A DNA stretch of 57,026 nt. Source: Nitrospirota bacterium (GTDB taxonomy: Bacteria > Nitrospirota > Thermodesulfovibrionia > Thermodesulfovibrionales > UBA6898). The DNA lies in NCBI GenBank assembly GCA_024275975.1, contig JAJRYC010000063.1, positions 1 to 57,026 on the forward strand, written 5' to 3'. The position numbers were made by a program, and so were the translations under genes. The notes beneath the pieces are model-generated. The model worked only from the letters and a program-made list of their open reading frames with translations. It made no database searches and was not told the origin of the DNA. Shown here one piece after another: positions 24,739 through 46,176 of this stretch; position 1 is the stretch's first letter; each line of letters starts with the position of its first letter.

Positions 24739-27219
24739 TCAAGCTCTGGAATCTCCCTTCGCGGACTCTATGGTTACCGCCTCTATAATTGCTCCGCCGT
24801 TCCGGGAAGGACGCGTAAGGGCATTGATCCGGCCGTAAGGAAAATGCAGCGATGTAAAGACCGTCCCTGATTCAACAGTGTCTGAAATTTTCGCCTTGAG
24901 ATAGACGGCCCCCCGCCTTGATGTCAGCCTGACATAGCTGTTGTCGGATATCCCGAATTTTTCGGCGTCATCCTCGCTTAATTCGAGGAATGGCTCGGAA
25001 GCAACCAGATCAAGCGCCTTCGACCTGGTTGAGATGGTCCCGGAATGCTGCAGAACATCTCTTGTTACCAACAAAAGCGGATATTCCGGATCCGGCCCTT
25101 CAGCAGCCGAATACGCTACCGGATTAAATGCCTTTTTACCCGGAACCTCCCGGTTATCCTTGATTGTGTTATTTATTTCGTATGTTATGCTCTCGAGGTC
25201 CCTGGCCGCAATGTCAGCCCCAAAAGACAATGACAGGTTGCGCAGTATCCGCCAGTCGGGAAGTGACTGGCCAGGGGCATCGACTATCTTCTGTAATTTC
25301 TGTGCGATCCCCTCTGCATTGATAAAAGTTCCGTCTTTTTCGGCCCAGCCGGAGGCTGGGAGTATAACATGCGCCAGTTTCGCCGTCTCTGTCATGGCTA
25401 TATCCTGGACCACAAGGAATTTCAGGGATTTAAGCGTCCCTGTTATTTTTGAGCTGTCCGGAAAGATTGAGACAGGGTCTTCCCCCATTATGTAAAGGGC
25501 ATTGACAGCGCCGTCTTCATACAGCATATCATAGATGTTCTTCCCTTCCGTCTGCATGATGTCCGGCCGGACTCCCATTCTGTACAGCCCATGGGTATTT
25601 GCATATTCAGCCGGTATCTGGAGGGCATCCGGTTCTTCGCCGATAAGGATTATCAGGTTGGCCGCGGCTGATACGGTATCCATGCCCTTTGAATTCTCCT
25701 AGACACCAAGAGTAAATGATATCATCCTGTTCCGGGCGTTCGCGATCGCTTCCGCAGCGGATATGATATCTTCCTCCGGAATGCCGGTAATGAGCGACAC
25801 TTTAGCGGGTGTATAGTCTTCAAGGCCCTGTTCGAACCCGGGAAACCCGGTGATATTCGAGACAGCCGCCCTGTCGCAAAGTTCCCTGTCCAGAACCACC
25901 TTCATTATTCCGTTAAGAAACGCCGTAGACGTCCCCTCCTTCATCTTCAGGTGTTTTGAGCTGTGCCTTGTAAGTTTTGTTTCCCTACAGTCGGCGACAA
26001 TCACTTGAGATCCGTTCCTCTTTGCCTGGAGGATATTAAGCCCGAACACGGGATGTGTGATACTTATGTCTGATTCAAGGACCAGGATAAGGTCTTTATC
26101 CAGGGGTGAATCCATATTTATCGAGTGTGTTTTCAGTCCAAAGGCCGCATCCAGTGCCTTCTGTACTTTTGCGTATCCGAACGATGCCGAAGAATCCATA
26201 TTGTTTGAGCCGATTACATTCAGCATAAACTTCCTCAGCATGAAGTTGTCCTCGTTCGTACATCTGTGCGATCCGATGGCGCCGATTGATTCCCTGCCGT
26301 TTGTATTGATGATCTTCTTCAGTTCCCCGCTTATGTATTCCAGTGCTTCATCCCATGTGGCCGGCACAAACGCCCCATCTTTTTTTATCAGCGGCGTCTT
26401 CAGCCGGGTATCACTGTAAATAAAATCGAACCCGAACCTGCCTCTCCCGCATAGATTTCCCTTGTTGCGACCGACGTCCTCCTTTCCCCTCGATCTGAGG
26501 ATTTTCCCTTCCCTGACGCCTAAGGTCAACGTACAGCCGCAGCCGCAGAAGGGGCATATAGTCTCTTTTTCCTCGAGGAACCACGCGCGCGCCTTAAACT
26601 TGAAGGGCTTGCTCAGAAGCGCGCCGGTCGGGCAGACATCCACGCACTGTCCACAGTAATCGCACTCAAGAATTTCGCCGAAAGCCGGCTGCACAACCGT
26701 GGGAAATCCCCTGCCGATCAACCCCAGAGCGCCACGCCCCTGATGTTCACTACAGATACGCACGCATTTTCCGCAGAGTATACATCTATTGGAAGTCAGT
26801 TCAATCAGCGGCCCCCTGACATCGGGAGGGGCTTCTTTTCTGTGCCTTATAAACCGGCCTTCGGGCTTGCCATACTCATATGCCAGGTCCTGCAGGTCGC
26901 ACTCTCCGGCCTTGTCGCATACCGGACAGTCAAGCGGATGGTGGACGAGAAGCAGCTCAATGACCGTCTGGCGGACCTTCCTGAGTTTTGGGGTGTCCGT
27001 CTTTACGGCCCATCCAGGCGCTGCGGGAGTGGAGCATGCGGCAAAAAGTCTGGGCATGCCTTCCACTTCGACTACACACAGCCTGCATCCACCGTATGGC
27101 CTGAGCCTCTTGTCAAAACAGAGGTTGGGTATCTTGATCCCGTTCATTCGGGCGGCGTTAAGGATTGTCGTGCCGTTTTCAACAGATATTTGTTTATCGT
27201 TAATAGTGAACTCAACCAT
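24739..27219 (-). pseudogene. NuoG-like iron-sulfur subunit (second copy), interrupted by in-frame TAG
   Basis: The frame runs from ATG 27219 (the previous gene's TAG lies just before it) to 24739, with one TAG at 25701-25699 between SFTLGV and ENSKGMDTVSA. That region is contiguous in relatives, so a single nonsense codon cuts an approximately 826-codon gene. The N-terminal part has the [2Fe-2S] set (GGCRLCVVEVEGMPRLFAAC), DCPVCDKAGECDLQ, and two further clusters (CILCGKCVRIC, CDYCGQCVDVCPTGA). ICPFCGCGCTL then leads into a molybdopterin-oxidoreductase-type fold. At the position of the formate dehydrogenase Sec/Cys the sequence is SSASFGYAK, so no metal ligand is present and formate oxidation is unlikely. 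With the adjacent NuoF-like and receiver-NuoE proteins it forms a second soluble NuoEFG-like module. Confidence 0.86.
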
Positions 27220-27220
27220 A

Positions 27221-29140
27221 CTATGCTTCCCCCTTTTTTGTGCTGCTTTCAGCACCAGCCGGTTCAGCCAATTCCGAAAGGTCGCCCTCATATCCCGCGG
27301 GCATGATCTTTATAGACCGGAATTTACATGCCTCATAGCAGCTTCTGCAATGGACACAGAGTTCCTGGATAATCTTGTGCGGTTGTTTCTTTTCACCGAC
27401 TATCGCTTTTGACGGGCATCCCCTTAAACAGGCGCCGCATCCGGTACAGAGTTTTTCATCTATCCGGAAGGAACAGAGGTCCCGGCAGACGCCTGCCTTG
27501 CACCAGCCGTGTTTTATATGTGATTCATATTCATCCCTGAAGTACTTGATTGTTGTGAGCACCGGATTCGGCGCAGTCTGTCCGAGTCCGCAGAGCGATG
27601 TTGCAATGATGTCCCTGGAGAGGTCTTCCAGTGTCACGACATCCTCTTCCTTGCCCCTGCCCTCCGCAATATCGGTCAGAATATCAAGTAATATCCTTGT
27701 CCCGACCCTGCATGGAGGACATTTACCACAGGATTCGTCCGCCGTGAATTCCAGGAAGAATTTCGCCATGCCTACCATGCATGTGTTGTCATCCATCACA
27801 ACCATTCCCCCTGAACCGACAATCGCCCCGGTTGCGACTATATCCTCATATGTTACAGGTGTATCAAGGAGGTGTTCCGGCACACAGCCGCCCGAGGGGC
27901 CGCCAAGCTGGACCGCCTTGAATTTCCCCCTTTTTTTTATTCCCCCGCCGACGTCGTGTATAATCGTCCGGAGAGGGATTCCCATCGGGACTTCGACCAG
28001 TCCGACGTTTTTTATGGTCCCGGTAAGCGCAAACACCTTGGTGCCGGAGCTCTTTTCGGTCCCCAGACTCCTGTACCAGTCAGCCCCTTTAAGGATTACA
28101 GGAGATATCTGCGCCAGGGTCTCGACATTGTTCAGCACCGAAGGTTTGTCCCATAATCCCTTATGTGCCGGAAACGGAGGACGAGGACGAGGCATTCCCC
28201 GTTTGCCCTCTATGGAACGCATCAGCGCGGTCTCTTCGCCGCATACGAAAGCGCCGGCGCCCAGGTAGATTTCGAGACCGAAATCAAATCCCGTGCCGAG
28301 AATATTCTCTCCCAGAAGCCCGGCCTCAACCGCCTTGTCTATCGCCATTTGAAGACGTTTAACAGCCAGTGGATATTCGGCCCTGACGTATATATAACCA
28401 TTGTGGGAGCCGATGGCTTTGGCACCTATAATCATTCCTTCGATAACTGAATGCGGGTCCGCCTCCATCACTGACCTGTCCATAAACGCCCCGGGGTCTC
28501 CTTCATCTCCGTTGCAGAGCATAAACTTGACGTCCGACTGAACTTTCGAGGCGAATTCCCATTTCAAACCGGTAGGAAATCCAGCGCCTCCTCTCCCCCT
28601 CAATCCCGAACTTTTCACAACGTTTATTATCTCTTCGGGGGTCATATGTATCAGGGCTTTTGCGGCGGCCTGGTAACCGTCTCTTGCTATATATTCCTCG
28701 ATATTCTCGGGATCCATAAGTCCTATGTTTCGCAGCACCCTCAGCTCCTGGAGATTGAAAAACGGCATGTCGGACCAGGGGGGAAGGGCGTAGTCCAGCA
28801 GGGGCTTTCCTTCAATGAAATGTTCCGTCACGATCTTCCGCATCTTTTCAGCATTAAGGTCACAGTATTTGATCGTTTCGCCGCCTGTTTCTTCGACCGT
28901 GGCAATCGGCTCCCTGCCGCAGAGTCCGGCGCAGCCGGAAGAAGCGACAAGTATATTTTGGATACTGTTTTTTGCGATCTCATCCATCAGCGCATCCATA
29001 ACTTCCCTTGCCCCTGCCGCAATCCCGCAGGTCCCCATATGCACAGTCACCTTTGTCCTGTATCCGCCTTCACGCAAGGTGAATTCCTCTTTATACTTCT
29101 GTTTGATCTTCAGTAGATCATCGGTCGTCAGCCTTGACAT
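27221..29140 (-). CDS. NuoF/HydB-like NADH-oxidising flavoprotein with thioredoxin-like and ferredoxin domains
   Basis: The protein has about 639 residues from ATG 29140, preceded by GGAGGG. The longer frame would run back into the receiver-NuoE gene. Domains in order: an N-terminal [2Fe-2S] thioredoxin-like fold (HMGTCGIAAGA, SSGCAGLCG); the NuoF FMN/NADH core (LRGRGGAGFPTGLKWEFA, CNGDEGDPGAF, GAFVCGEETALMRSIEGKRG); an SLBB region; the N3-type cluster site ESCGKCPPCRVGTR; and two C-terminal [4Fe-4S] motifs (CTGCGACLRGCPSKAI, CVHCRSCYEACKF). This layout matches beta subunits of NAD-linked [FeFe] hydrogenases and formate dehydrogenases (HydB/HndC type), not the shorter complex I NuoF at 36341. 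No hydrogenase catalytic subunit is nearby. It probably oxidises NADH or reduces NAD+ with ferredoxin-type partners. Confidence 0.92.
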   Translation of the reverse strand: MSRLTTDDLLKIKQKYKEEFTLREGGYRTKVTVHMGTCGIAAGAREVMDALMDEIAKNSIQNILVASSGCAGLCGREPIATVEETGGETIKYCDLNAEKMRKIVTEHFIEGKPLLDYALPPWSDMPFFNLQELRVLRNIGLMDPENIEEYIARDGYQAAAKALIHMTPEEIINVVKSSGLRGRGGAGFPTGLKWEFASKVQSDVKFMLCNGDEGDPGAFMDRSVMEADPHSVIEGMIIGAKAIGSHNGYIYVRAEYPLAVKRLQMAIDKAVEAGLLGENILGTGFDFGLEIYLGAGAFVCGEETALMRSIEGKRGMPRPRPPFPAHKGLWDKPSVLNNVETLAQISPVILKGADWYRSLGTEKSSGTKVFALTGTIKNVGLVEVPMGIPLRTIIHDVGGGIKKRGKFKAVQLGGPSGGCVPEHLLDTPVTYEDIVATGAIVGSGGMVVMDDNTCMVGMAKFFLEFTADESCGKCPPCRVGTRILLDILTDIAEGRGKEEDVVTLEDLSRDIIATSLCGLGQTAPNPVLTTIKYFRDEYESHIKHGWCKAGVCRDLCSFRIDEKLCTGCGACLRGCPSKAIVGEKKQPHKIIQELCVHCRSCYEACKFRSIKIMPAGYEGDLSELAEPAGAESSTKKGEA

Positions 29141-29141
29141 C

Positions 29142-30071
29142 TCAGCCCTCCTTTTCCACTGTCTCTTCAATCTCTTCCGGAGGTCCTGGCTCTACAAATG
29201 CCGGGGCGTATCGCCCAAGAATTTTCAGCGCCTTTTTCGGAGTCATTGATCCGAATGTCTCCTGGTCAACAACCATCACGGGCGCCAGGCCGCAGGCCCC
29301 CAGGCACCGCACGCCTTCGAGGGAGAATTTTTTGTCTCCGGTGGTATCACCTATATCTATATGTAACGCGTCTTTTATCTTCCCCAGCACTCCTTCAATA
29401 CCTCTTACGTAACACGCCGTACCGAGACATACCCTGATATTATGGTCACCCCTCGGCTTCATTGTAAAAAATGAATAAAAAGATACAACACTGTGCACTT
29501 CCGCGGGGGGTATATTCAGGCCCCGGCCGATCCTCTTCTGTACAGCAGGCGGGAGAAACCCCACAATTTCCTGGGCACGCTGAAGAACGGGTATCAGCGC
29601 CCCGGGTTTGTCTCTATATTCATGGACTGCCCTGTCAAGTTCAGCCGCCATTGCAGGCGGGAACTCTTCATCGACCTTCGCTTCTTCGGATTTTTCGCCC
29701 TCTAGCCATTGAACGGCCCTCCGGGTAACATCCAGCAGCACGGCAGGGGTAAAAGGCTTGGGAACATAGTCGATGATCCCGAGTCCAAGCGCCTCTTTTA
29801 TAGTGTCCTGGGACGGGTAACCGGTAATGATCACGATCCCGGTCGAAGGCCTGTTTTTTCTGATCCACCTGATGAGGGTTATACCGTCGACCTCCGGCAT
29901 CTTAAGGTCTGTAAAGACAAGGTTGTAGCCGTTCTGCTCGATTTTAAGAAGGGCTTCCCTGCCACCAAGCGCTCCCTCAACATTATATCCTTCGCCCTCC
30001 AGCACCCTCCTGGCGCTCTTTATAACGACGATCTCGTCGTCAACAATTAAGATCTTCGGCCCTGCTGCCAT
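29142..30071 (-). CDS. Response-regulator receiver fused to NuoE-like [2Fe-2S] subunit
   Basis: The protein has 309 residues. Residues 1-125 form a CheY-like receiver: KILIVDDEIVVIKSA (acidic pocket), NLVFTDLKMPEVDG (phosphoacceptor Asp), GIVIITGYPSQ (Thr switch) and YVPKPFTPA (conserved Lys). A short linker (LEGEKSEEAKVDEEF) leads to residues 145-295, a complete NuoE/24-kDa thioredoxin-like [2Fe-2S] domain with VCLGTACYVRG and VRCLGACGLAPVMVV (C-x4-C and C-x3-C). AGGAGG precedes the ATG. The stop lies two bases before the NuoF-like start. The fusion puts a phosphorylation switch directly on an electron-transfer subunit. I infer that phosphorylation changes assembly or activity of the NuoEFG-like enzyme. 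No DNA-binding domain is present. Confidence 0.92.
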   Translation of the reverse strand: MAAGPKILIVDDEIVVIKSARRVLEGEGYNVEGALGGREALLKIEQNGYNLVFTDLKMPEVDGITLIRWIRKNRPSTGIVIITGYPSQDTIKEALGLGIIDYVPKPFTPAVLLDVTRRAVQWLEGEKSEEAKVDEEFPPAMAAELDRAVHEYRDKPGALIPVLQRAQEIVGFLPPAVQKRIGRGLNIPPAEVHSVVSFYSFFTMKPRGDHNIRVCLGTACYVRGIEGVLGKIKDALHIDIGDTTGDKKFSLEGVRCLGACGLAPVMVVDQETFGSMTPKKALKILGRYAPAFVEPGPPEEIEETVEKEG

Positions 30072-31022: not shown

Positions 31023-31397
31023 TTACCGCTTCTTCTGCTCAAATGCGTTGCGAACAGCCGAAACAAGCGCGTCCGGGGTAAAAGGCTTTTCGATATAATC
31101 GAAAGCCCCGAGCTTGATCGCTTTCACGGCAGTGTCGACTGTCTGATATCCCGTTATAATGATAACCTCGATCCCGGGCCATTCTTCCTTGATCTTTCCG
31201 AGCACCTCTATGCCGTCCATATCCGGCATCTTCAGGTCGGTAAGAACAAGATCAAACTCCTCTTCTTCGATCATCCTTAAGCCGTCAAACCCATTCCGGG
31301 CCATCTTCACTTCATAGCCTTCGGGTGTGAGCGCCCGGCTGCAGCTTGTCCTTACGATGTCTTCATCGTCGATTACCAGGACTTTACCTTTAGTCAT
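31023..31397 (-). CDS. Single-domain response regulator (CheY-like receiver)
   Basis: The protein has 124 residues and is a receiver with nothing after it: KVLVIDDEDIVRTSCSRAL (acidic pair), DLVLTDLKMPDMDG (phosphoacceptor), EVIIITGYQTVDTAVKAI (Thr) and YIEKPFTPDALVSAVR (Lys). Its ATG overlaps the kinase stop as ATGA, so it is translationally coupled to the histidine kinase and is its likely first phosphate acceptor. With no output domain it probably works by protein contact or as a phosphate shuttle to the two fused regulators downstream, which share closely similar receiver sequences. A 163-base gap separates it from the next gene. Confidence 0.94.
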   Translation of the reverse strand: MTKGKVLVIDDEDIVRTSCSRALTPEGYEVKMARNGFDGLRMIEEEEFDLVLTDLKMPDMDGIEVLGKIKEEWPGIEVIIITGYQTVDTAVKAIKLGAFDYIEKPFTPDALVSAVRNAFEQKKR

Positions 31398-32974
31398 GAC
31401 TTATATTCCCTGTATACGGGCAACCGGATAAAAAAACTGCTCCCTTCACCAAGTTTGCTTTTAACAAAAATACTCCCTCCATGTTCCTTGATAATGCCGT
31501 GGCTGACAGCAAGACCCAGCCCCGTGCCTTTACCAACAGGTTTTGTAGTAAAAAACGGCTCGAACAACTTCTCGATATCTTCTTCTCTTATGCCAGAGCC
31601 TGTATCACTGAATTCGATTTCTACAAATTCCTTGCCCTCATCCTCTATGGTCCTGCTGGTGATTGTTATCGTCCCCTTTCCATCGAATGCATCGGCGGCG
31701 TTCATAATCATGTTAAGAAAGACCTGCTGAAGCTGAGAAGGGTCCGCCTTTACCGGCGGGAGAGATTCGTCAAAGTTTATGATCAGCTTGATATTGAAGA
31801 AATCCGCCTTGTTACGCACTATATTCAGCGAGCTGCTTAATGCGTCGTTGACGTTGATCAGGGTTTTTTCGGCCGCCGACGCCCTGGCAAAGCCGAGGAG
31901 ACCTTTTATGATATTCGAGCACCGGTTTGCCTGGTCTATTATTACGTCTATATCCTCCCTGTCCTCAGAACCTTCAGGGAATTTTTTCCGCAGGAGATGG
32001 CCGAAGGTCACAATGCCTGTCAGCGGGCTGTTTATCTCATGCGCCACTCCGGCAGCCATTCTTCCAAGAGAGGCCAGCTTTTCTGAATGTATGAGCTGCG
32101 CCTGCGCTTTCTGCATGGCTTCGGTCTTTTCCATCACCTTTTTCTCAAGTGTATGTCCCCACTCGACAAGCTCATCCTTGGCCTTCTTCAGGTCGAGGGT
32201 CATGGCATTAAACGCCTTCGCCAGATCACCCATTTCGTCCCTGGTATTTATAGTCACCTGATAATCGAGGTCGCCGGCGGCTACTCTCTCCATCCCCTGG
32301 GCAAGAAGGCTTACGGGGGTTGAGACGAACTTCCAGAGAATTGTACACAGCACAACGGAGATAACAAACAGGAAGACAAGCACATATATGATCATAGCTA
32401 TGCCCTGCTGTTTAATGCTCTTGTCAAGAAGCGCCAGTGAAAGGTTTGCCTCAACAAGGCCGAGGACTTTCTGGTCCTTTGGATGAAAATGGCAGGTCGA
32501 GGTATAGCAGGCCGGTTCATTGTAAATAGGCTGTACGATATTCAGCACCCTATAATCTTTTTCCTTTTTTATGGACCAGGTTTTGGTATCTTTCGGATGT
32601 TCATCCTCTGTATGACAGCCGGTACATACAGGAGAGGTCTTATCCAGTATAGTCCCTATGTCTTTTTTGTTCGATGAATAAGTGATCCTTCCCTGCCTGT
32701 TGAATATCCTTATATTTAACACGCCCTCTTCCGAGCCGATCGCTTCAATCGTCTGTTGTATTATAAGTTTCTGATAGGCAAGCATGCCGTAACGTGTGCT
32801 TTTCCTTACATACTCCACAAAAGAATAGCCATATTTCACCGAGCCTTCGATGAGCGCATTCTCCTGGTATCTGAAGAGAAAATACCAGAATATAAGGCTG
32901 CCTGCAATCATCAATGTCCCGATTGTAATAATCAGTTTTCCCGTTAATGAATGTAAAGATTTCTTGACAAGCAT
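31394..32974 (-). CDS. Membrane sensor histidine kinase with periplasmic c-type heme motifs
   Basis: The protein has 526 residues. TM1 is at about 12-34 and TM2 at about 188-212, enclosing a periplasmic sensor of about 150 residues. That sensor contains a CTGCH heme-attachment motif near residue 117 and a second cysteine pair plus His, CYTSTCH, near 156 (C-x4-CH, atypical spacing). A HAMP linker (VAAGDLDYQVTINTRDEMGDL), coiled coil, HisKA with AAGVAHEINSPL (phospho-His near 311) and HATPase (FLNMIMNAADA, FSDTGSGI, GKGTGLGLAVSHGI) follow. The sensor probably reads periplasmic redox state or a gas through heme (inference). It is the first gene of a minus-strand set of regulators and a NuoEFG-like enzyme, and is transcribed divergently from nuoA. 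Confidence 0.92.
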   Translation of the reverse strand: MLVKKSLHSLTGKLIITIGTLMIAGSLIFWYFLFRYQENALIEGSVKYGYSFVEYVRKSTRYGMLAYQKLIIQQTIEAIGSEEGVLNIRIFNRQGRITYSSNKKDIGTILDKTSPVCTGCHTEDEHPKDTKTWSIKKEKDYRVLNIVQPIYNEPACYTSTCHFHPKDQKVLGLVEANLSLALLDKSIKQQGIAMIIYVLVFLFVISVVLCTILWKFVSTPVSLLAQGMERVAAGDLDYQVTINTRDEMGDLAKAFNAMTLDLKKAKDELVEWGHTLEKKVMEKTEAMQKAQAQLIHSEKLASLGRMAAGVAHEINSPLTGIVTFGHLLRKKFPEGSEDREDIDVIIDQANRCSNIIKGLLGFARASAAEKTLINVNDALSSSLNIVRNKADFFNIKLIINFDESLPPVKADPSQLQQVFLNMIMNAADAFDGKGTITITSRTIEDEGKEFVEIEFSDTGSGIREEDIEKLFEPFFTTKPVGKGTGLGLAVSHGIIKEHGGSIFVKSKLGEGSSFFIRLPVYREYKS

Positions 32975-32985
32975 TACTAAAGAAA

Positions 32986-33014
32986 TTTATAACATTATCG
33001 GATAATTAATGCAA
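32986..33014 (-). promoter_or_regulatory. Likely promoter of the heme-kinase/NuoEFG-like operon
   Basis: On the minus strand, TTGCAT (33014-33009) and TATAAA (32991-32986) are separated by 17 bases. The -10 box is strong and the -35 moderate. The kinase ATG at 32974 lies only 11 bases beyond the -10 box, so the transcript would begin very close to the start codon, giving a leaderless or nearly leaderless message. Confidence 0.5.
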
Positions 33015-33049
33015 GATAAAAACCTAAATCTACAACTTTAATTTTTTTC

Positions 33050-33078
33050 TTGACTTCTTTGCGCTATTTAGCTATAAA
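33050..33078 (+). promoter_or_regulatory. Likely promoter of the nuoA-N operon
   Basis: TTGACT (33050-33055) and TATAAA (33073-33078) are separated by exactly 17 bases, a near-consensus sigma-70 type promoter. The nuoA ATG begins at 33089, ten bases after the -10 box, with no Shine-Dalgarno sequence. The predicted transcript is therefore leaderless or carries only a few bases. It is back to back with the kinase-operon promoter, leaving about 35 bases between the two -35 boxes for shared control. Confidence 0.6.
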
Positions 33079-33088
33079 TTAAAGCGTA

Positions 33089-33460
33089 ATGACTGGATCA
33101 TATTTGCCTACGGAATATTTGCCGATATTGATTTTTCTTATGATTGCCTTAGCTTTTGGGCTTGGCGCCCTGTTACTGGGCGAGGCTTTCAGAATGAAAA
33201 GGCCTTATGCCGAGAAGCTGATGCCATATGAGTCCGGCAATCTCCCCGTGGGCGAACCGCGCCAGAGGTTTTCGATCCGGTTTTATATTATCGCCATGCT
33301 TTTTGTTGTATTTGATGTAGAGGCTGTTTTCCTGTATCCCTGGGCCGTAGTCTTTGATGAAATAGGGTTATTTGCTTTCATCGAAATGGTTATTTTTATA
33401 ATAATATTGCTTGTCGGATATATATACGCATGGAAAAAGGAGGCGTTTGTTTGGGACTAA
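33089..33460 (+). CDS. nuoA: NADH-quinone oxidoreductase subunit A
   Basis: The protein has 123 residues with three membrane helices. The conserved loop [20 protein letters not shown] and [20 protein letters not shown] are hallmarks of NuoA/ND3, whose loop lies at the quinone-site junction of complex I. It is the first gene of a complete nuoA-N set. The start has no ribosome binding site and sits ten bases after a -10 box. The next gene overlaps its end. Confidence 0.96.
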
Positions 33461-33981
33461 TTACGACGGATACCACTGGCAATCAGCTTGTTGAGGTTGA
33501 AGAGGGTACGGTGATCATGGCTCCGAACATCATCATAACCTCCATGGACAAACTGATCAACTGGAGCAGACGTTCATCCCTGTGGCCCATGACATTCGGC
33601 CTTGCCTGCTGCGCGATAGAGATGATGGCGACTTACGCAAGCCACAATGACCTGGACAGGATGGGAATTATCCCCAGGGGCTCCCCAAGGCAGTCCGATT
33701 TCATGTTTGTCGCCGGCACTGTCACAAAAAAAATGGCGCAGATAGTCAGAAGAGTTTATGACCAGATGCCCGAACCACGATATGTTATCTCCGTCGGCAG
33801 CTGCGCCAGCAGCGGCGGTATATTTAATACATACAGCACGGTACAGGGTTGTGACAGCATTCTTCCCGTTGATGTATATATCCCCGGCTGTCCTCCAAGG
33901 CCCGAGGCATTTATTGACGGGATAATAAAACTTCAGGAAAAGATAAAGCACGAGCATTTCAGGTGGAGCAGGTGGAGATGA
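33451..33981 (+). CDS. nuoB: NADH-quinone oxidoreductase subunit B (N2 cluster)
   Basis: The protein has about 176 residues. [20 protein letters not shown] supplies the tandem Cys pair, with [12 protein letters not shown] and [11 protein letters not shown] giving the other two ligands of cluster N2, the last cluster before quinone. I prefer the TTG at 33451 (MGLITTD) because AAGGAGG lies about nine bases before it. An upstream in-frame ATG at 33430 would place that ribosome site inside the coding sequence. It overlaps the end of nuoA by ten bases. Confidence 0.95.
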
Positions 33982-34065
33982 ACTCCAGGCTGGCGGCCCC
34001 CGGTTCTCTTTGAGACAGGCTGCAATTACAAACTATTAACTGCTTGAATTTAGTTAGCTGCATAC

Positions 34066-34599
34066 ATGGAACCTTTAGAGATAGTAGAAAAGATAAAAGA
34101 GATATTTCCTGCTGAACTCCTTGATACCAAGGAATTCAGGGGACAGGTGTCGATCACCCTCGGCAAATCCCGAATTCTCGAAATCTGTGGATATCTGCGT
34201 GATAAACCCGATCTGCATTTCGATTACCTTGTTGATCTATGCGGAATGGATTATCTCGGCAAAAAAGAGGTGAGGTTCGAAGTCGTCTATAATCTCTATT
34301 CAATGAAACACCGCCACCGCATACGGCTGAAAGCCGAAGTATCCGGGGATGGTCCGGCCATAGATTCCGTTACACCCGTCTGGAGGGGCGCGGACTGGCA
34401 TGAAAGAGAGGTCTATGACATGTTCGGGATCGTATTTAACGGACATCCCGACCTCCGCAGGGTGCTGATGCCGGAAAACTGGGAAGGACATCCATTAAGA
34501 AAGGACTATCCTCTCAAGGGGCCTGAAAAAGAATGGCAGGGATTCATCGAAGTCCTTGACAAGGCGGAGAGGTTCAGGGAGTTTGAATGGCATGATTAA
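34066..34599 (+). CDS. nuoC: NADH-quinone oxidoreductase subunit C
   Basis: A 177-residue peripheral-arm subunit of the 30-kDa family. The diagnostic motif is [19 protein letters not shown] followed by [25 protein letters not shown]. It is separate from NuoD rather than fused, as in most non-enterobacterial complexes. It starts 85 bases after nuoB, the widest gap in the first part of the operon, with no clear ribosome binding site before the ATG. Confidence 0.95.
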
Positions 34600-34638
34600 C
34601 AGAAGCAACCCGGAAGAAGAGATAAAAAACAATTAACC

Positions 34639-35838
34639 ATGGAACATATCGAAGACATAGAAAAGCCGTTCAGGACTCAGGAATTGACTATCAGCATGGG
34701 GCCGCAGCATCCGGCCACGCACGGAGTGCTCAGGCTTGTGCTTAACCTCTCAGGAGAGAATGTCGTAAAATGCACACCATATGTCGGGTACCTCCACAGG
34801 GGGATTGAGAAGCTCGGCGAAAACAGGACGTATTTTTCCGCGCTCCCGCTGAGCGACCGGCTTGATTATATAGCCTCGATGAACAATAATGTCGGATACG
34901 TAAACGCGGTAGAAAAACTCTTCGGCATCGAAGTTCCCGAAAGGGCCAAATTCATAAGGACCATGGTGGCGGAGATGGGAAGAATTTCGAGTCATATCGT
35001 ATGGCTCGGCACACATATCCTGGACATCGGAGCCACAACACCGTTCCTGCATTCCATGGCGCAGAGGGAACGGTTGCTGGATCTTTTCGAAATTTTATGC
35101 GGGGCGAGGCTTACAGTGAGCTATCCGAGAATAGGCGGCGTCCGCAATGACGTTTCACAGGAGTTCCTCGACAAGCTTTATGAGTTCGTCCTGGAGTTCC
35201 CTTCAAATATGGATAACTATGAAACCCTTGTTACAGAAAACAGGATATGGAAGCACCGGACTGTCGGCATAGGCGTTATATCCGCTGAAGAAGCGATCAA
35301 CTGGGGACTGACAGGCGGCACGCTCAGGGGTTCGGGTGTCGATTACGACGTAAGGAAGTACGCGCCGTATGACGCCTATGACAAGGTTGAATTCGACATC
35401 CCTGTCGGCAAAAACGGCGACTGTTACGACAGGTATCTCGTCAGGGTCGGCGAGCTGAGACAGGCAAACCGGATAATTAAACAGTGCATAGAAAACCTCC
35501 CCGCCGGGCCTATAATGTCGGATGTCCCGAAATTGACCCTTCCCCCGAAGGATATGGTTATGAAGGACATGGAACACCTCATACACCAGTTCATATTGAT
35601 AACAAAAGGCCCCTCCGTACCAGAGGGCGAGGTATATATGGGAACGGAAGCTCCGAAAGGTGAACTTGGGTTTTATTTTGTCAGTGACGGCACAGGCAAA
35701 CCCTACAGGATGAGGGTAAGGGCGCCCTCTTTTGTTCACGCATCCGTACTGCCGAGATTATGCGAGGGCGGCCTCGTTGCCGATGTAATCGCAAACATCG
35801 GAACAATAGACATTGTCCTGGGTGAATGTGACAGATAA
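34639..35838 (+). CDS. nuoD: NADH-quinone oxidoreductase subunit D
   Basis: The 49-kDa subunit with 399 residues, related to the large subunit of [NiFe] hydrogenases and lining the quinone cavity. Markers are [16 protein letters not shown] (quinone-site His), [37 protein letters not shown] and the C-terminal [12 protein letters not shown]. The hydrogenase Ni-ligand cysteines are absent, as expected for true NuoD. It sits directly between nuoC and nuoE. Confidence 0.97.
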
Positions 35839-35870
35839 ATGGATAACGAGGCGGAAAAAGAAGTGAATTT

Positions 35871-36335
35871 ATGCTGAGTGAAGCGGCCATAAAGGAAATT
35901 GAGGCAATAAGGGCCAAATATCCCACCGCCCGGGCGGCCCTTCTTCCGGCTATATATGTCGCCCAGAGGGAGTTCGGGTGGCTGTCTCCGGAGGCCTATG
36001 AGGCTGTCTCGGACATACTCGGCATCCCGAAGGCGATTGCCAGGGGCGTTGCGACATTCTACGCTATGTACAGGCATAGACCGATGGGACGAAATGTTGT
36101 TCAGCTCTGCACAAATGTCTCATGCATGATACTGGGCGCGGAAAAACTCGTGGATTTCCTGAAAAACAGGTACTCACTGGAACCCGGCGGAACAGACCCT
36201 GACGGAAGATTTTCACTGGTGATCATGGAATGTATCGGCGCATGCGGAACCGCTCCGGCGATGCTTGTGAATGAGGACTTCTATGAAAATCTCACCGAAA
36301 AATACATAGAAGAGATACTAGGGAAATACAAATAA
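35871..36335 (+). CDS. nuoE: NADH-quinone oxidoreductase subunit E
   Basis: The 24-kDa thioredoxin-like subunit with 154 residues. It carries one [2Fe-2S] cluster with ligands in VQLCTNVSCMILGA (C-x4-C) and MECIGACGTAPAM (C-x3-C). GVATFYAMYRHRPMGRN is the usual central block. This copy has no receiver domain, in contrast to the paralog at 29142-30071, which allows direct comparison of regulated and unregulated forms in one genome. Confidence 0.96.
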   Translation: MLSEAAIKEIEAIRAKYPTARAALLPAIYVAQREFGWLSPEAYEAVSDILGIPKAIARGVATFYAMYRHRPMGRNVVQLCTNVSCMILGAEKLVDFLKNRYSLEPGGTDPDGRFSLVIMECIGACGTAPAMLVNEDFYENLTEKYIEEILGKYK

Positions 36336-36340
36336 AAAAC

Positions 36341-37603
36341 ATGGAAAAGGTGCTTTTAAAAAACATAGATAACCCCGATTCAGCCGATATAGGCGAATAC
36401 CGAAAGGCTGGAGGATATCGGAGTCTTCCGAAGGCCCTTGAGCTGGAACCGAAAGCCATTATCGAGGAAGTGAAGAAGGCCGGACTGAGAGGGCGCGGAG
36501 GAGCGGGATTCCCAGTTGCGATGAAATGGACATTCGCCTCGTCGGACCCCAAGTTTCCCAAGTACCTCCTCTGCAACGCGGACGAAGGGGAACCCGGCAC
36601 GTTTAAAGACCGGCCGATACTCGAGAAAAACCCCCATCTACTTATAGAGGGCATGATCATCTCGGGTTATACCCTTAAAGCGGAATACGGTTATATCTAT
36701 CTAAGAGGTGAATATCCGGAGGCAAAACATATATTGGACAAGGCGATCGCCCAGGCTTATGAAAACGGGTTTCTTGGCGAAAAAATCGCTGGAAAAGATG
36801 TCAGGTTCCATCTCGCGGTCCATCAGGGCGCGGGGGCGTATATCTGCGGCGAGGAGACGGCCCTGATCGAATCACTCGAGGGCGACAGGGGGCAGCCGAG
36901 AATCAAGCCGCCATTCCCGGTCAATGTCGGAGCATTCTCGATGCCGACGGTCGTAAACAATGTCGAGACCCTTTCGAATCTGCCGTACATAATCGAGATC
37001 GGCGGTGAGGCATACTCAAAGATAGGCAGTCCCGACTGTCCGGGCCCGAAACTTTATTGTGTCAGCGGACATATTGAGAAGCCGGGTGTCTACGAACTAC
37101 CGATGGGCACAATCCTCAAAGATATAATTTATACACACTGCGGCGGAATCAAAGGCGGCGGGAAGCTGAAAGCGGTCATTCCCGGCGGTATTTCAACGCC
37201 TGTACTGCCGCCGGACAAATTAGACTGTCCGATGGATTTTGTCAATATGCCGAAGCATGGAAGCATGCTCGGTTCCGGCGCTGTTATTGTTATGGATGAA
37301 AGCGTATGCCTCGTCAAGGTTTGTTACAGGGCGTTGAAGTTTTTCGAGCATGAATCCTGCGGGAAATGCACCCCCTGTCGTGAAGGCACCGGATGGCTCA
37401 GGAGTATCCTCGGAAGGATAGAAGACGGCAGCGGCGTTGACGGCGACATAGAACTTCTGCTGTCGGTCTCGGGCAACATCATGGGCAAAACATTCTGCCC
37501 GCTCGGCGACGGTGCGGCGTCCGTGGTGCAGAACTTCATTAAACATTTCAGACCTGAATTTGAAGATCATATAAAAAACGCAGGGTGTTCCCTGAAGAAT
37601 TAA
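36341..37603 (+). CDS. nuoF: NADH-quinone oxidoreductase subunit F (NADH/FMN site)
   Basis: The 51-kDa subunit with 420 residues that binds NADH, FMN and cluster N3. Motifs are LRGRGGAGFPVAMKWTFA, CNADEGEPGTFKDRPILE, GAYICGEETALIESLEGDRG, and the cluster ligands ESCGKCTPCREGTGW with the final FCPLGDG. Unlike the paralog at 27221, it lacks the thioredoxin-like N-domain and the two C-terminal ferredoxin clusters, which is the standard complex I form. It begins five bases after nuoE. Confidence 0.97.
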   Translation: MEKVLLKNIDNPDSADIGEYRKAGGYRSLPKALELEPKAIIEEVKKAGLRGRGGAGFPVAMKWTFASSDPKFPKYLLCNADEGEPGTFKDRPILEKNPHLLIEGMIISGYTLKAEYGYIYLRGEYPEAKHILDKAIAQAYENGFLGEKIAGKDVRFHLAVHQGAGAYICGEETALIESLEGDRGQPRIKPPFPVNVGAFSMPTVVNNVETLSNLPYIIEIGGEAYSKIGSPDCPGPKLYCVSGHIEKPGVYELPMGTILKDIIYTHCGGIKGGGKLKAVIPGGISTPVLPPDKLDCPMDFVNMPKHGSMLGSGAVIVMDESVCLVKVCYRALKFFEHESCGKCTPCREGTGWLRSILGRIEDGSGVDGDIELLLSVSGNIMGKTFCPLGDGAASVVQNFIKHFRPEFEDHIKNAGCSLKN

Positions 37604-37612
37604 AGGGTTATC

Positions 37613-40198
37613 ATGATAACGGTAAACATAAACGGTAAAGATATAAAACTCGAAAAGGCGGTCACGGTGCTTGAGGCTGCAAGGTCCGCGGGGATCAAGA
37701 TACCGACACTCTGTTATCATGAACAGCTTGAGAAATACGGCGGCTGCAGACTCTGTCTTGTAGAGGTCGAGAAGATGCCGCGACTCCAGACCGCCTGCAC
37801 GCTTATATCGGCTGACGGGATGGTGATCAGGACAGAGACCGAGCAACTGGCCGAGGTCCGCAGGGGTATCCTCGAATTTCTACTCATCAATCATCCACTG
37901 GACTGTCCTTACTGCGACAAGGCGGGCGAATGTGAACTCCAGGACCTTGTGGAGAAATACGGGACGGCCAAGGGGAGATACATGGAGAAGAAGAGAACTG
38001 TCCCCGAAAGCCTGGAAGATCCGGTAATTGTCCGGAATATGGGGAGATGCATCGCCTGCACACGGTGTGTGAGAATGTGTGAGGGTGTCCAGGGCGCATC
38101 GGCCATCGCAGTCATAAACAGGGGCGGGCATTCGCATATCGAGCCCTTTTCGGGAGGCAGGTATGACTGTGAATACTGCGGCAACTGCGTCTCCGTATGC
38201 CCTGTCGGAGCGATCATGTCCAGGCTGCACAGACACAGCTACAGGCCCTGGCAGGTAAAGGAGAATATCGAGACGGTATGTCCTTACTGCGGGGTTGGCT
38301 GCACGGTTATCCTGCAGGTCCGCGATGACGTCATAAAACGGGTTGTTCCCAGGATTGGTTCTGTTGTCAACAACGGGATGCTATGTTCCAGGGGCAGATT
38401 CGGTTATGAATTCGTTGGCAACAGAGAGAGGCTTACATCACCGCTGATAAAAAAGAACGGCGTGTTTGAAGAAGCCACATGGGAAGAGGCAATCAGCCTT
38501 GTCGCCAACAGGCTGAAAGAGGCCAGGGACGGATACGGCGGCGCGGCTGTGGCCGGAATCGCATCGCCAAGATGCACCAACGAGGATAATTTCATCTTCC
38601 AGAAATTCATGAGGGTCGTCCTCGGGACGAATAACATAGACAGCTCGGCGCGGACAGGGTATGCCGGCGCGCAGAGTTTTATCGAAAATATATCCGGACA
38701 GGGCGCAACCGCAAATATCATAGCAGGCCTTTCGAATTCCGATGTTGTCCTGGTGACCGGCGGAGATCCCACAACGGTAAACCCGATACTCGGCCTGCAG
38801 ATCAGGTCCTGCGCCGGAAAAGGCGGCAATATCCTTACAGTTGGCCATGTCAGGGGTCTTAGGCATTTCAACCCGGCGGAACTGAGACCCGCGCTATTTA
38901 CCGAGACCCTCCTGCTTGAGGGAATACTCCACTCACTTAAAAACACAAAGGAATTACCCGGCTCGAACCCGAAGTTTGAAGCGAAGATACGCGAACTCAA
39001 TATTTCGCCCGAAGATATCATAAAGACATGCGGGGTTTCAGAGGAAGATTTCAACGGATTCCTCAAAAAACTCTCTGGGGCCGCCAATCCCGCCATAGTG
39101 ATCGGGAAAGAATTGATCCAGAGCATAGGGAGCAGCTACAAGTTATTTCTGGTCCTGGCGATAAATTATCTTATCAACGGCAGGGTCTATCTGCTTTCCG
39201 AACGCGCGAACGAACAGGGTCTTATTGATATGGGCTGCACGCCCGACTCGCTGCCCGGATGCAGGCCGGTCGCCTATGCTGAATTCAGGAGAAGATATGA
39301 GACGGCATGGAAGACCACAATCCCGGACAAGCCCGGCCTTTCGATCTTTGAGATGATGGATTCGGCTGGAAGCGGGGCGCTGAAAGCCATGTATATAATG
39401 GGGGAAAACCCTTTGTTTAATCTTCCGGAATCTCATGCCTCGGAGGCCGCCCTGAAGAATCTTGACTTCCTGGTTGTGCAGGATATCTTCCTCACAGAGA
39501 CAGGAAAACTTGCCGATGTCGTACTTCCCTCCCTGGGCTGGTCGGAAAAAGAAGGAACATTCACAAATATGGAGCGGAGGATTCAACGCCTGAGGAAGGC
39601 CGTGTACAGAGACGGGATGGAAGACTGGAAGATACTATCCGAGGTCGCAAAAAATATGGGCGTGAAGTTTAACTACGCAGACGCTGAAGAGATTTTCAAT
39701 GAAATCAGCAGGGTCTCGCCACTTCACAGGGACCTGACATACAATGAAATAGAAAAAGGGAACGCCTTATATCCTTACAAAGGCGAGCCTCTCCGGGGCG
39801 TCATGGAAGACATAGTAAGCCATAAAGGCGACAGACTGGATGCCGGTGACAAACTTTATCTCGGACTGGAAAGGCCTTTGTTCCACTCAGGCACCCTGAG
39901 CACAAAGGCCTCCGCGCTTCTACACATCTACCCCGAGGCGGTCGCAACAATCAGTCCGTCAACCGCAGAGAAGTTCTCCCTGAAGCCCGGAGATAAAGTC
40001 AGGGTAACCACAGGCGCCGGTTCGCTTTCACTCCCCGTCGCTGTTGATGATGCTGTCCACGGCTCGCTGGTTATGATCACAAACAACTTCGAGGGAAAAG
40101 GGGCATTCGCATTAATAAAGTATATTGCCGACCCGGTCACGAAAGCCCCTGTGATTGAAGGTATTGAAGTGCATTTAGAAAAGGACGGAACAGTTTAA
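37613..40198 (+). CDS. nuoG: NADH-quinone oxidoreductase subunit G
   Basis: The 75-kDa iron-sulfur subunit with 861 residues. N-terminal clusters: YGGCRLCLVEVEKMPRLQTAC ([2Fe-2S] ligands), HPLDCPYCDKAGECELQ, CIACTRCVRMCEG and CEYCGNCVSVCPVGAI. VCPYCGVGCTVILQV adds the extra N-terminal [4Fe-4S] site typical of formate-dehydrogenase-like NuoG. The remainder is a molybdopterin-oxidoreductase fold without a Sec/Cys metal ligand (SSARTGYAGA at that position), so it is structural. The stop overlaps the nuoH ATG (TAATG). It is an intact paralog of the interrupted copy at 24739-27219. Confidence 0.96.
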   Translation: MITVNINGKDIKLEKAVTVLEAARSAGIKIPTLCYHEQLEKYGGCRLCLVEVEKMPRLQTACTLISADGMVIRTETEQLAEVRRGILEFLLINHPLDCPYCDKAGECELQDLVEKYGTAKGRYMEKKRTVPESLEDPVIVRNMGRCIACTRCVRMCEGVQGASAIAVINRGGHSHIEPFSGGRYDCEYCGNCVSVCPVGAIMSRLHRHSYRPWQVKENIETVCPYCGVGCTVILQVRDDVIKRVVPRIGSVVNNGMLCSRGRFGYEFVGNRERLTSPLIKKNGVFEEATWEEAISLVANRLKEARDGYGGAAVAGIASPRCTNEDNFIFQKFMRVVLGTNNIDSSARTGYAGAQSFIENISGQGATANIIAGLSNSDVVLVTGGDPTTVNPILGLQIRSCAGKGGNILTVGHVRGLRHFNPAELRPALFTETLLLEGILHSLKNTKELPGSNPKFEAKIRELNISPEDIIKTCGVSEEDFNGFLKKLSGAANPAIVIGKELIQSIGSSYKLFLVLAINYLINGRVYLLSERANEQGLIDMGCTPDSLPGCRPVAYAEFRRRYETAWKTTIPDKPGLSIFEMMDSAGSGALKAMYIMGENPLFNLPESHASEAALKNLDFLVVQDIFLTETGKLADVVLPSLGWSEKEGTFTNMERRIQRLRKAVYRDGMEDWKILSEVAKNMGVKFNYADAEEIFNEISRVSPLHRDLTYNEIEKGNALYPYKGEPLRGVMEDIVSHKGDRLDAGDKLYLGLERPLFHSGTLSTKASALLHIYPEAVATISPSTAEKFSLKPGDKVRVTTGAGSLSLPVAVDDAVHGSLVMITNNFEGKGAFALIKYIADPVTKAPVIEGIEVHLEKDGTV

Positions 40199-41250
40199 TG
40201 GAGAAATTTTTTGAGACTATTGTCGCCCCGGGGGCTGTAGATTTCATGCTGTATATAGGAGTAATTCTGCTCAAGGTAATCGTCGTGGTCGTCATAGCAC
40301 TTCTGCATGTAGCCTTCGCCACTTATTTCGAGCGCAAGGTGATGGCCCGCATGCAGCTAAGAATCGGCCCCAGGGAAGTCGGCCCCTTCGGTCTCCTCCA
40401 GCCTTTCGCGGACGGCATCAAATTGTTCTTCAAGGAAGATATTATACCGGCCAACGCGGATAAACCGATATTTTATCTTGCGCCGATCATCTTTTTTGCC
40501 TCCGCCCTCACTTCATTGTCCGTGCTGCCTTTTTTTAGCGGTTTTGTCGTGGCCGATATAAACATAGGGCTGCTCTTCCTCCTTGCGATGTCTTCCCTTG
40601 GGGCATACGGCATCATGATGGCAGGATGGGCATCCGACTCGAAATTCGCGTTCCTCGGCGGGCTCAGGTCGGCCTCGCAGATTATCAGCTACGAGATAGC
40701 GATAGGACTCAGCCTCGTCGGCGTCATAATCATGGCGGGCTCCCTTAACCTTTCCGATATTGTAATAGCACAGCATAATTACCCGACCGGCATGTTCGCG
40801 ATACCCCAGTTCCTGGGTTTTGCTGTATTTCTTGTTGCAGCATTGGCGGAAACCAACAGGCTCCCGTTTGACCTTCCAGAGGCTGAAAGCGAACTTGTAG
40901 CGGGCTATTTCACCGAATACAGCGGATTCCGCTTTGCGATGTTCTTCCTCGGGGAATATACAGGGATGTTAATTATGTCCTCGATCGCTACATTGTGTTT
41001 TCTGGGCGGCTGGACTATCCCGGCCTTCATCACGAATTTCCTGCCGTTCCTGTCTTACGTGCCGGGTATTGTCTGGTTCCTGGCCAAAGTATATTTCCTT
41101 ATGTTCTGCTATTACTGGGTAAGATCGACTTTCCCGAGATACAGATACGACCAGCTTATGGCGATCGGCTGGAAGGTCCTCATCCCCCTGGCGCTTGCTA
41201 ATATAGTATTAACCGGCCTTGTGAAATCCTTGAGTAAGGGACTGCAATGA
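40198..41250 (+). CDS. nuoH: NADH-quinone oxidoreductase subunit H
   Basis: A 350-residue membrane subunit at the junction of the two arms that shapes the quinone tunnel. Markers are ATYFERKVMARMQLRIGPRE and VGPFGLLQPFADGIKLFFKE, plus ALAETNRLPFDLPEAESELV and GYFTEYSGFRFAMFFLGEY. About eight membrane helices. Start and stop overlap the neighbours nuoG and nuoI, indicating tight translational coupling. Confidence 0.97.
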   Translation: MEKFFETIVAPGAVDFMLYIGVILLKVIVVVVIALLHVAFATYFERKVMARMQLRIGPREVGPFGLLQPFADGIKLFFKEDIIPANADKPIFYLAPIIFFASALTSLSVLPFFSGFVVADINIGLLFLLAMSSLGAYGIMMAGWASDSKFAFLGGLRSASQIISYEIAIGLSLVGVIIMAGSLNLSDIVIAQHNYPTGMFAIPQFLGFAVFLVAALAETNRLPFDLPEAESELVAGYFTEYSGFRFAMFFLGEYTGMLIMSSIATLCFLGGWTIPAFITNFLPFLSYVPGIVWFLAKVYFLMFCYYWVRSTFPRYRYDQLMAIGWKVLIPLALANIVLTGLVKSLSKGLQ

Positions 41251-41816
41251 AAAAGGAAGTTTTTTTAAAGAGTATATCGTTTATAGATCTGATAAAGGGG
41301 CTGGCGTTCACCCTGAAGACATTTCTCTTCACCAAACCTGTCACAAGGCGCTACCCCAACAAGGTTAAAATATACGCCCAACCGGGCTTCAGGGGGCTTC
41401 ACGCGCTGGCCAAAGATGAAGATGGCAGGATGAAATGTGTTGGATGCGGCCTCTGCGGGGCATACTGCCCTTCACAGTGTATTCATATCTATACTACTGA
41501 AGGCGAGGACCATAAAAAAGTTGTCGACAGATACGAAGTGGATGTCCTCAGGTGCATCTTCTGTGGTTTTTGTGTCGAGGCCTGTCCGTTCGGCGCCATT
41601 ACACTGACCGAACACTATGAATACTCGGCCTATAAGAAGGAAGATTTTTACATGACAAAGGAAAAACTCCTCGATAACTGGGATAAATATATGTCTGGAG
41701 AGAAAGGTCGAAGGTATTTCCTGGATTTCTGGCGTCCGAAATCAGAGGATTTCACCGGGTATAAGGGGCAGGCCATGTTCAGCAAAACAAAGCCAAAGGA
41801 AAAGGAACAGGTATGA
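41247..41816 (+). CDS. nuoI: NADH-quinone oxidoreductase subunit I (two [4Fe-4S])
   Basis: A 189-residue ferredoxin-like subunit carrying clusters N6a and N6b, seen as CVGCGLCGAYCPSQCI and CIFCGFCVEACPFGAI. The N-terminus is amphipathic and docks on NuoH. The C-terminal tail (about 50 residues after the second cluster) is lysine-rich. It overlaps nuoH and nuoJ by four bases each. Confidence 0.97.
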   Translation: MKKEVFLKSISFIDLIKGLAFTLKTFLFTKPVTRRYPNKVKIYAQPGFRGLHALAKDEDGRMKCVGCGLCGAYCPSQCIHIYTTEGEDHKKVVDRYEVDVLRCIFCGFCVEACPFGAITLTEHYEYSAYKKEDFYMTKEKLLDNWDKYMSGEKGRRYFLDFWRPKSEDFTGYKGQAMFSKTKPKEKEQV

Positions 41817-42328
41817 TACAACAACTATTCTTCGCGTACTTTTCGGCTGCGATAATCCTTCTTTCGGTCCTTGTCATTACGAGAAGGAACCCCGTCCACA
41901 GCGTTATGTGGATGCTCCTTCTATTTTTCCATTTAGCCGGACTTTATCTATTCCTCGGCGCTGAATTCATAGCTGCCATTCAGGTAATCGTCTACGCGGG
42001 AGCGATACTCGTGCTCTTTCTCTTCGTCGTGCTGCTCCTTAACCTTAGAGAGGAACTGAAAACGAACAGGTTTATCACTTCATGGCCCGTCAGTTTAATT
42101 ATCTGCGCCGGAATACTTCTGCTTATCATCAGCTCCCTCAGGGACTTTCTACTGGGTCCAATCGGAAAATATTCAGTTGAATACCTGAGAAAGGAAACCA
42201 ACACAGTAGCGCTGGGAAAGGTTTTATACACCGAATTTCTTTTACCGTTCGAGATAGCATCCCTCGTGCTGCTTGTCGCCATCATCGGCGCGATCGTACT
42301 TGCCAAGAGAAGGGTAAAGAGTCACTGA
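41813..42328 (+). CDS. nuoJ: NADH-quinone oxidoreductase subunit J
   Basis: A 171-residue ND6-like membrane subunit with five predicted helices. The conserved third helix reads GAEFIAAIQVIVYAGAILVL, which contains the pi-bulge region important for coupling. RRNPVHSVMWMLLLFFHLAG is the usual preceding block. It overlaps the nuoI stop as ATGA. Confidence 0.95.
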   Translation: MIQQLFFAYFSAAIILLSVLVITRRNPVHSVMWMLLLFFHLAGLYLFLGAEFIAAIQVIVYAGAILVLFLFVVLLLNLREELKTNRFITSWPVSLIICAGILLLIISSLRDFLLGPIGKYSVEYLRKETNTVALGKVLYTEFLLPFEIASLVLLVAIIGAIVLAKRRVKSH

Positions 42329-42378
42329 AAGGTATATTTAATGCAAAACATGGATAACATAAGATTGGAGAGTGAGGA

Positions 42379-42681
42379 ATGGTCCCTTTAGACTGGTATC
42401 TTATATTGAGCGCAACAGTCTTCATGATCGGGGTCTTCGGGTTCCTGACGAGGAGGAACATAATAATTATGTTCCTGTCGATTGAACTGATGCTGAACGC
42501 GGTCAATATCAGCCTGCTGTCTTTCAGCCACTACATGCAGGACATGAGGGGGCAGATACTTGCCTTCTTCGTTATAGCCGTGGCGGCGGCGGAAGCCGCG
42601 ATAGGGCTCGCGATAATCATAGCGCTATTCAAAAACAAGGCCACTGTTCATGTGGACGAAATGAACGAGATGAAGGGATGA
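42379..42681 (+). CDS. nuoK: NADH-quinone oxidoreductase subunit K
   Basis: A 100-residue ND4L-like subunit with three helices. The conserved acidic residues appear in [17 protein letters not shown] and [17 protein letters not shown], both part of the proton pathway. GAGG lies shortly before the ATG, and nuoL follows after ten bases. Confidence 0.96.
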
Positions 42682-42691
42682 GGAGCGGGAG

Positions 42692-44611: not shown

Positions 44612-44618
44612 TTCTACA

Positions 44619-46157: not shown

Positions 46158-46176
46158 GTAATATGGGGGGTTTTTA

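Follow-up and report, generated by a model that had tools for sequence, protein, structure and literature searches.

Why would an electron-transfer subunit carry a two-component receiver domain? The question is raised by a single gene on the 57,026-nt stretch of Nitrospirota DNA analysed here, which we call the window. The original prediction for this gene was a receiver fused to a NuoE-type [2Fe-2S] subunit, perhaps acting in phosphorylation-gated electron transfer. The explanation that we favour, at a probability of about 0.5 for the reading as a whole, identifies the protein as BfuC of an electron-bifurcating module that feeds complex I and is tuned by phosphorylation of the receiver.

Domains and distribution of the fused protein

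The gene lies on the minus strand and encodes 309 residues in one frame, in which Pfam recognises Response_reg at residues 7-115 (E 2.3e-27) and 2Fe-2S_thioredx at residues 146-288 (E 2.4e-47). As predicted, the catalytic residues of the receiver (D11/D12, D55, T83 and K105) and four cluster cysteines (C215, C220, C256 and C260) are all found in this one protein. In an AlphaFold model (46 relatives, mean pLDDT 88), the receiver adopts the (beta-alpha)5 fold with pLDDT mostly above 90, and is followed by a linker disordered at residues 128-134, four helices and a thioredoxin-like domain. The pTM of 0.46 leaves the orientation of the receiver towards the NuoE half unfixed. The coordinates of these and all other features are collected in Table 1.

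Table 1. Features of the fusion locus, its neighbours and the paralogues. Coordinates refer to the window unless preceded by the name of another locus.
Feature	Position	Strand	Basis
Receiver-BfuC fusion, 309 aa	29142..30071	minus	One open frame; Pfam; fusion kept in about 110 genomes of the class
Receiver (CheY-like), residues 6-121; D11, D12, D55 (codon 29907-29909), T83, K105	29709..30056	minus	Pfam PF00072; AlphaFold
Linker, residues 122-144 (128-134 predicted disordered)	29640..29708	minus	pLDDT <50 at 128-134; relaxed selection
BfuC/HydC-type [2Fe-2S] thioredoxin-like domain, residues 145-288; Cys215, 220, 256, 260	29208..29639	minus	Pfam PF01257; nearest solved chains; tree
BfuB/HydB: N-terminal HndB-like [2Fe-2S] domain, FMN/NADH domain, B1-B5 cluster cysteines	27221..29140	minus	Pfam; alignment
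BfuA (NuoG/Fdh-alpha-like, A1-A5 cluster cysteines), with in-frame TAG at 25699-25701	24739..27219	minus	Alignment
Receiver with GcvH-like domain lacking the lipoyl lysine, 255 aa	30092..30859	minus	Pfam; alignment
Stand-alone receiver, 124 aa	31023..31397	minus	Pfam
Membrane sensor histidine kinase: CxxCH and Cx4CH haem-attachment motifs in sensor region, then HAMP, HisKA, HATPase	31394..32974	minus	Pfam; alignment
Shared divergent intergenic region, 114 bp, kinase gene to nuoA	32975..33088		
Complex-I operon nuoA-nuoN (nuoN frameshifted), with its own nuoE 35871-36335, nuoF 36341-37603, nuoG 37613-40198	33089..47606	plus	
Paralogue without [2Fe-2S] domain	L120:7333-8157		
Paralogue without [2Fe-2S] domain	L121:9318-10064		
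Paralogue without [2Fe-2S] domain	L122:6404-7222		
Paralogue without [2Fe-2S] domain	L123:8933-9676		

The iron-sulfur half is not of the NuoE type named in the original prediction. Its nearest solved chains, 7t2r_C, 7q4v_C and 8a6t_C, are HydC subunits from bifurcating hydrogenases of the NiFe and FeFe types; NfnC and further C subunits of the Bfu family come next, with complex-I chains lower in the ranking. Foldseek agrees, ranking FdsG and Bfu C subunits first. In the tree, complex-I NuoE is split from the BfuC-type domains with support of 100/99, and the sister of the fused clade is an unfused BfuC from another Nitrospirota class (support 97/91). This sister sits inside a nuo operon, where the order in one genome (locus L117) is BfuC, HndB-like, HydB, a NuoG-like gene and nuoH. 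The unfused NuoE of the window, which had been proposed for comparison, shares the PF01257 fold and the four cysteines, but its identity to the fused domain is about 30%, and the two fall in separate, fully supported clades. The tree and the nearest structures together rule out a duplicate of complex-I NuoE. From its sequence relationships, then, the iron-sulfur half is a BfuC/HydC subunit of the electron-bifurcating, HydABC-like Bfu family, with one predicted [2Fe-2S] cluster in its 2Fe-2S_thioredx domain, as is typical of BfuC.

The source is a draft genome of 111 contigs and the window holds several broken genes, which might suggest that the join is an assembly artefact or a chance read-through of neighbouring genes. 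The original prediction had named such an artefact as grounds for its own dismissal. This explanation is refuted by about 110 genomes that carry the fusion (38-81% identity), by the grouping of the fused sequences in a single clade and by invariant residues, and we consider its probability negligible; the join is real. At a threshold of E<=1e-45, 112 of 163 genomes of at least 90% completeness from the Thermodesulfovibrionia-type Nitrospirota class, most members of which are uncultured, gave a match, with a handful of cases partial or confined to the NuoE half. A search of 41 relatives recovered the fused frame in 20 of the 24 other family members and in the majority of order-level genomes, at 45-81% identity. 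Outside the class, nine genomes from a sample of the phylum matched by the NuoE half alone. The best 80 of 133 relatives found by scanning genome contigs were all from Nitrospirota or related uncultured bacteria, and tblastn against plasmids returned unfused NuoE-like halves and no fusion. Phylogenetic analysis shows a single origin, as the fused domains form one clade in the maximum-likelihood tree (support 88/62).

Among 95 distinct fused sequences, the four cysteines are present in all, D11 in 94, D12 and K105 in 93 each, and D55 in 92. T83 is found in 89, with Ser at this position in two more. The acidic pair, acceptor Asp and Lys are kept together in 92 of the 95 receivers; three receivers (L128-L130) are degenerate, in proteins that retain the cluster. 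Compared with the nearest relatives, for which synonymous sites are near saturation, the non-synonymous distance is mostly 0.08-0.17 in both halves, with one value of 0.25, and rises to 0.37-0.49 in the relaxed linker and tail. By this measure, both halves of the fusion are under strong purifying selection.

One family also holds paralogues that have lost the [2Fe-2S] domain and retain the receiver together with the NuoE helical half. In three cases (L120-L122), the paralogue lies directly before HndB-BfuB-BfuA genes and after NfnA/NfnB-like genes. The acceptor Asp55 has become Glu in two of the four (L122 and L123). This decay indicates that the halves can degenerate independently of each other; that both are conserved together in the main family is therefore meaningful.

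A putative bifurcating module and its clustered regulators

The two genes that follow the fusion encode the remaining subunits of a Bfu-type module. BfuB contains 51K FMN and NADH_4Fe-4S domains, an N-terminal [2Fe-2S] domain and two C-terminal [4Fe-4S] motifs, and aligns end to end with the bifurcating HydB, NfnB and StnB chains, including 7t2r_B. The cysteines for clusters B1-B5 are kept in 93-94 of 94 sequences at each conserved position; of these, B2-B5 go beyond the complex I complement, a trait of the Bfu family. Most relatives encode the HndB-like N-terminal domain in a gene of its own, 127 aa in length. An SLBB domain gave no Pfam match in BfuB at E<=0.001, and the region aligns to solved BfuB chains without large gaps. 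In BfuA, the cysteines for A1-A5 are invariant across 83 sequences. Matches of BfuA to TIGR01591 raised the candidate of a formate dehydrogenase module. This was rejected because the catalytic Cys-His pair, in alignment with 6tg9, is replaced by Gly-Tyr; the relatives have Gly-Tyr or Gly-Phe, and none has Cys-His. Sequence evidence thus supports the BfuC-BfuB-BfuA identity of the module well. It most likely is a bifurcating or confurcating FMN/iron-sulfur enzyme, predicted to couple NAD and ferredoxin.

An in-frame TAG at 25699-25701 (minus strand) breaks the BfuA frame, which runs on to 24739; relatives mostly have Ser at this position, some Ala or Thr. Recoding of this codon was considered and set aside. 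The relatives' Ser codon is often TCN and a change from TCG to TAG takes one base, so the simpler explanation is either a nonsense mutation or an error in the sequence. Other genes of the window also look broken. A frameshift splits nuoN near 47,060 (47030-47090, plus strand) into ORFs 46177-47082 and 47061-47606, while the nuoN at locus L116 is intact at 479 aa. An MsbA-like ABC transporter at 17653-19379 (minus strand) is seemingly split into ORFs 17653-18903 and 18936-19379, possibly through an error or as a pseudogene. At 49161-51221 (plus strand), two adjacent ORFs that by eye resemble a DUF4157/eCIS-core type protein may be one frameshifted gene. With several such split genes in a draft genome, sequence error is a possible cause of both the BfuA stop codon and the nuoN frameshift.

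Upstream of the fusion, two further receivers and a membrane histidine kinase lie on the same strand. The first receiver is itself fused, to a GcvH-like domain (Pfam GCV_H, 30.8 bits against a cut-off of 22.2). No lipoyl-site lysine is conserved in this domain among 75 sequences, which excludes a role as lipoyl carrier, and a Foldseek search with the model of the whole protein gave receivers alone among the top matches. This receiver-GcvH-like fusion was seen at 79 of 90 loci examined, nearly always directly upstream of receiver-BfuC. In the kinase, each of the four cysteines of the haem motifs is kept in 44-46 of 46 sequences. The kinase gene lies in the module cluster at about half of the loci, several of which end at contig edges. 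The first helices of the three clustered receivers, which carry specificity, are 36-43% identical to one another, as compared to a 95th percentile of 29% for the other receivers of the genome. This likeness fits a single shared kinase, although it falls short of proof. PHP, DRTGG and small HATPase genes accompany the module at 33, 29 and 30 loci, respectively, including L114-L116. They are likely to be accessory or regulatory proteins, and they presumably resemble the accessory genes of FeFe-hydrogenase operons. The window as a whole has one match to a sigma-54 site, a number in line with chance, and it does not lie near the operon.

Could the receiver serve mainly for docking or assembly, by tethering BfuC to sibling receiver proteins (the GcvH-like fusion, for instance) or by dimerising the module, with phosphorylation minor or vestigial? 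The paralogous clade that lacks the [2Fe-2S] domain, its Asp to Glu changes and the three degenerate receivers of the main family are all in keeping with this. Against it stand the purifying selection and the retention of acidic pair, acceptor and Lys in nearly all receivers, as well as the kinase gene found in about half of the clusters, and we judge such a role to be rather unlikely.

It has also to be asked whether the signal runs the other way, such that the redox state of cluster C1, or the NADH/ferredoxin balance, alters receiver phosphorylation. The enzyme would then act on the kinase as a phosphate sink that reads redox state, and would feed the lone receiver or an NtrC-type regulator. 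The similar specificity helices of the clustered receivers would suit this idea, as would the NtrC-type receiver regulator that is found in the module cluster of many relatives. The cluster in the window, however, has no DNA-binding regulator, and the AlphaFold model has a flexible linker and no fixed domain interface. A reversed signal seems improbable to us.

Linkage to complex I and the possible control of electron input

In the window, the module cluster and a nuoA-nuoN operon diverge from a shared intergenic region (Table 1). This arrangement recurs. Wherever a locus had enough upstream sequence (52 loci), we looked for nuoA-D within about 10 kb, and found it at 30, of which 28 are divergent; chance would place these genes nearby in about 1% of cases for any one locus. 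At the other 22 loci there is no nuo gene nearby. The module is embedded in a nuo operon at three loci (L052, L053 and L094). At L052, it lies between nuoD and nuoH, in the place of nuoEFG, in a genome with BfuB-type NuoF homologues only. The nuo operon adjacent to the module at L114-L116 has nothing but a TPR gene between nuoA-D and nuoH, and canonical NuoF is absent from these genomes; the arrangement at L113 is similar. At L095, the nuo operon lacks EFG and a canonical NuoF is encoded elsewhere in the genome. In the window and most nuo-adjacent relatives, by contrast, the nuo operon retains its own EFG, and the link in the window is divergent adjacency only. At two loci from another Nitrospirota class (L117 and L118), the nuo operons hold a canonical NuoF set, with a NuoG-like gene, and an unfused Bfu set together. 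Some genomes of the class have a complex I without NuoF and without the fusion, showing that an EFG-less complex I can exist alone. Taken together, the gene arrangements give moderate support to docking of the module on complex I.

The same receiver-controlled bifurcating module might instead be soluble, with NfnAB/NADPH or an unidentified third substrate via BfuA as its partner, and with nuo adjacency reflecting co-regulation. NfnA-like genes near the module at seven loci, and NfnB-like genes at nine, indicate that the electron partner may differ, and Nfn-like genes directly precede the receiver gene in the paralogous cluster. The loci with no nuo gene nearby, and the nuoEFG genes kept by the window and most nuo-adjacent relatives, also fit a soluble enzyme. 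Such an enzyme would not account for embedding in nuo operons, for the replacement of nuoEFG at L052 or for the unfused sister inside a nuo operon. We regard it as unlikely.

Under the preferred reading, a phosphorylation-tuned input module for complex I, BfuC-BfuB-BfuA would serve as an alternative or replacement electron-input arm, passing electrons from NADH and reduced ferredoxin into menaquinone. Schut et al. (2022) proposed Nuo-Bfu as a complex I that takes electrons from NADH and ferredoxin jointly (PMC9304861). The membrane kinase with its two haem-attachment motifs, the gene for which belongs to the module's operon, would respond to periplasmic redox state or to a haem ligand, and would phosphorylate D55 and the sibling receivers. 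The receiver is attached to the N-terminal helical half of BfuC, the C-terminal [2Fe-2S] domain of which is expected to swing between FMN and the ferredoxin branch, like that of solved relatives. In cryo-EM of NiFe-HydABCSL, the C-terminal [2Fe-2S] domain of HydC rotates by 24 degrees between positions near FMN and near HydB, a movement that the authors proposed as a gate for low-potential electrons (PMC8880783). In the HydABC of T. maritima, the C1 cluster, which lies beside the mobile bridge, is considered important for bifurcation (PMC9499530). If the C-terminal domain of HydC is the gate, then a receiver on BfuC rides on the candidate gate, and its phosphorylation state may bias the swing of the [2Fe-2S] domain or the dimerisation of the module. 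This would set the amount of ferredoxin-coupled electron flow that enters respiration. Several observations count against the reading: the 22 of 52 loci that have no nuo gene close by, the NfnA- and NfnB-like neighbours, the EFG-less complex I of genomes that lack the fusion, the three degenerate receivers, the unfixed orientation in the AlphaFold model and the stop codon in the BfuA of the window.

Phosphorylation-gated electron transfer, as originally predicted, thus remains the best reading, with a receiver that keeps the residues for phosphorylation in 92 of 95 sequences. The original prediction had overlooked that the subunit belongs to a bifurcating Bfu/HydABC enzyme with its other subunits encoded directly downstream, that the kinase, the lone receiver and the receiver-GcvH-like fusion are encoded upstream, and that the module is linked to complex-I operons. 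A more specific version is that phosphorylation switches complex I between NADH-only input through its own NuoEFG and ferredoxin-coupled bifurcating input, within seconds of a haem-sensed periplasmic signal and without transcription. We offer this version tentatively, and think it more doubtful than probable.

Relation to known systems

The closest known system is Nuo-Bfu (Type 3 Bfu, BfuB clades 38/39; PMC9304861), which has the same BfuC-BfuB-BfuA set with all clusters, lies in or next to nuo operons and occurs in Nitrospirota; BfuB clade 39 is that of Planctomycetes and Nitrospirae. The module described here differs in the receiver on BfuC, in the receiver-GcvH fusion alongside it and in the separate nuoEFG that often coexists. 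The terms receiver, kinase and phosphorylation are absent from the main text of that paper. Bfu and Nuo-Bfu are already known, and the new part would be the receiver on BfuC. In the openly searchable literature we found no description of a receiver-NuoE/HydC fusion, and earlier awareness at the database level is possible.

The HydABC hydrogenases (NiFe-HydABCSL and FeFe-HydABC; 7t2r, 7q4v, 7p5h and 8a6t) share the HydC/HydB/HydA core and the C-terminal [2Fe-2S] domain of HydC, but their HydC has no receiver, and the module lacks their hydrogenase active site. The StnABC/NfnABC and tungstopterin-AOR Bfu complexes (8oh5, 9n5u, 9bov and 9mqx) have a BfuB that can be aligned over nearly its full length, with a shifted N-terminal cysteine pattern common to 9n5u, 8oh5 and 9bov. 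They differ in having another BfuA catalytic domain or extra subunits, and no receiver. A receiver kept class-deep on the proposed gate subunit of a HydABC-type enzyme provides a natural and testable handle on the open question of the bifurcation mechanism.

Two-component signalling in bacteria acts mostly via transcription, chemotaxis or second messengers. The findings suggest that a two-component signal may also switch respiration directly, rather than through gene expression, and that uncultured subsurface Nitrospirota may select the input of complex I post-translationally. CheB, PleD and PorX are response regulators with an enzymatic, non-DNA-binding output. The fusion likewise joins a receiver to a non-DNA-binding output, but here that output is a subunit that transfers electrons within a larger redox enzyme of several subunits.
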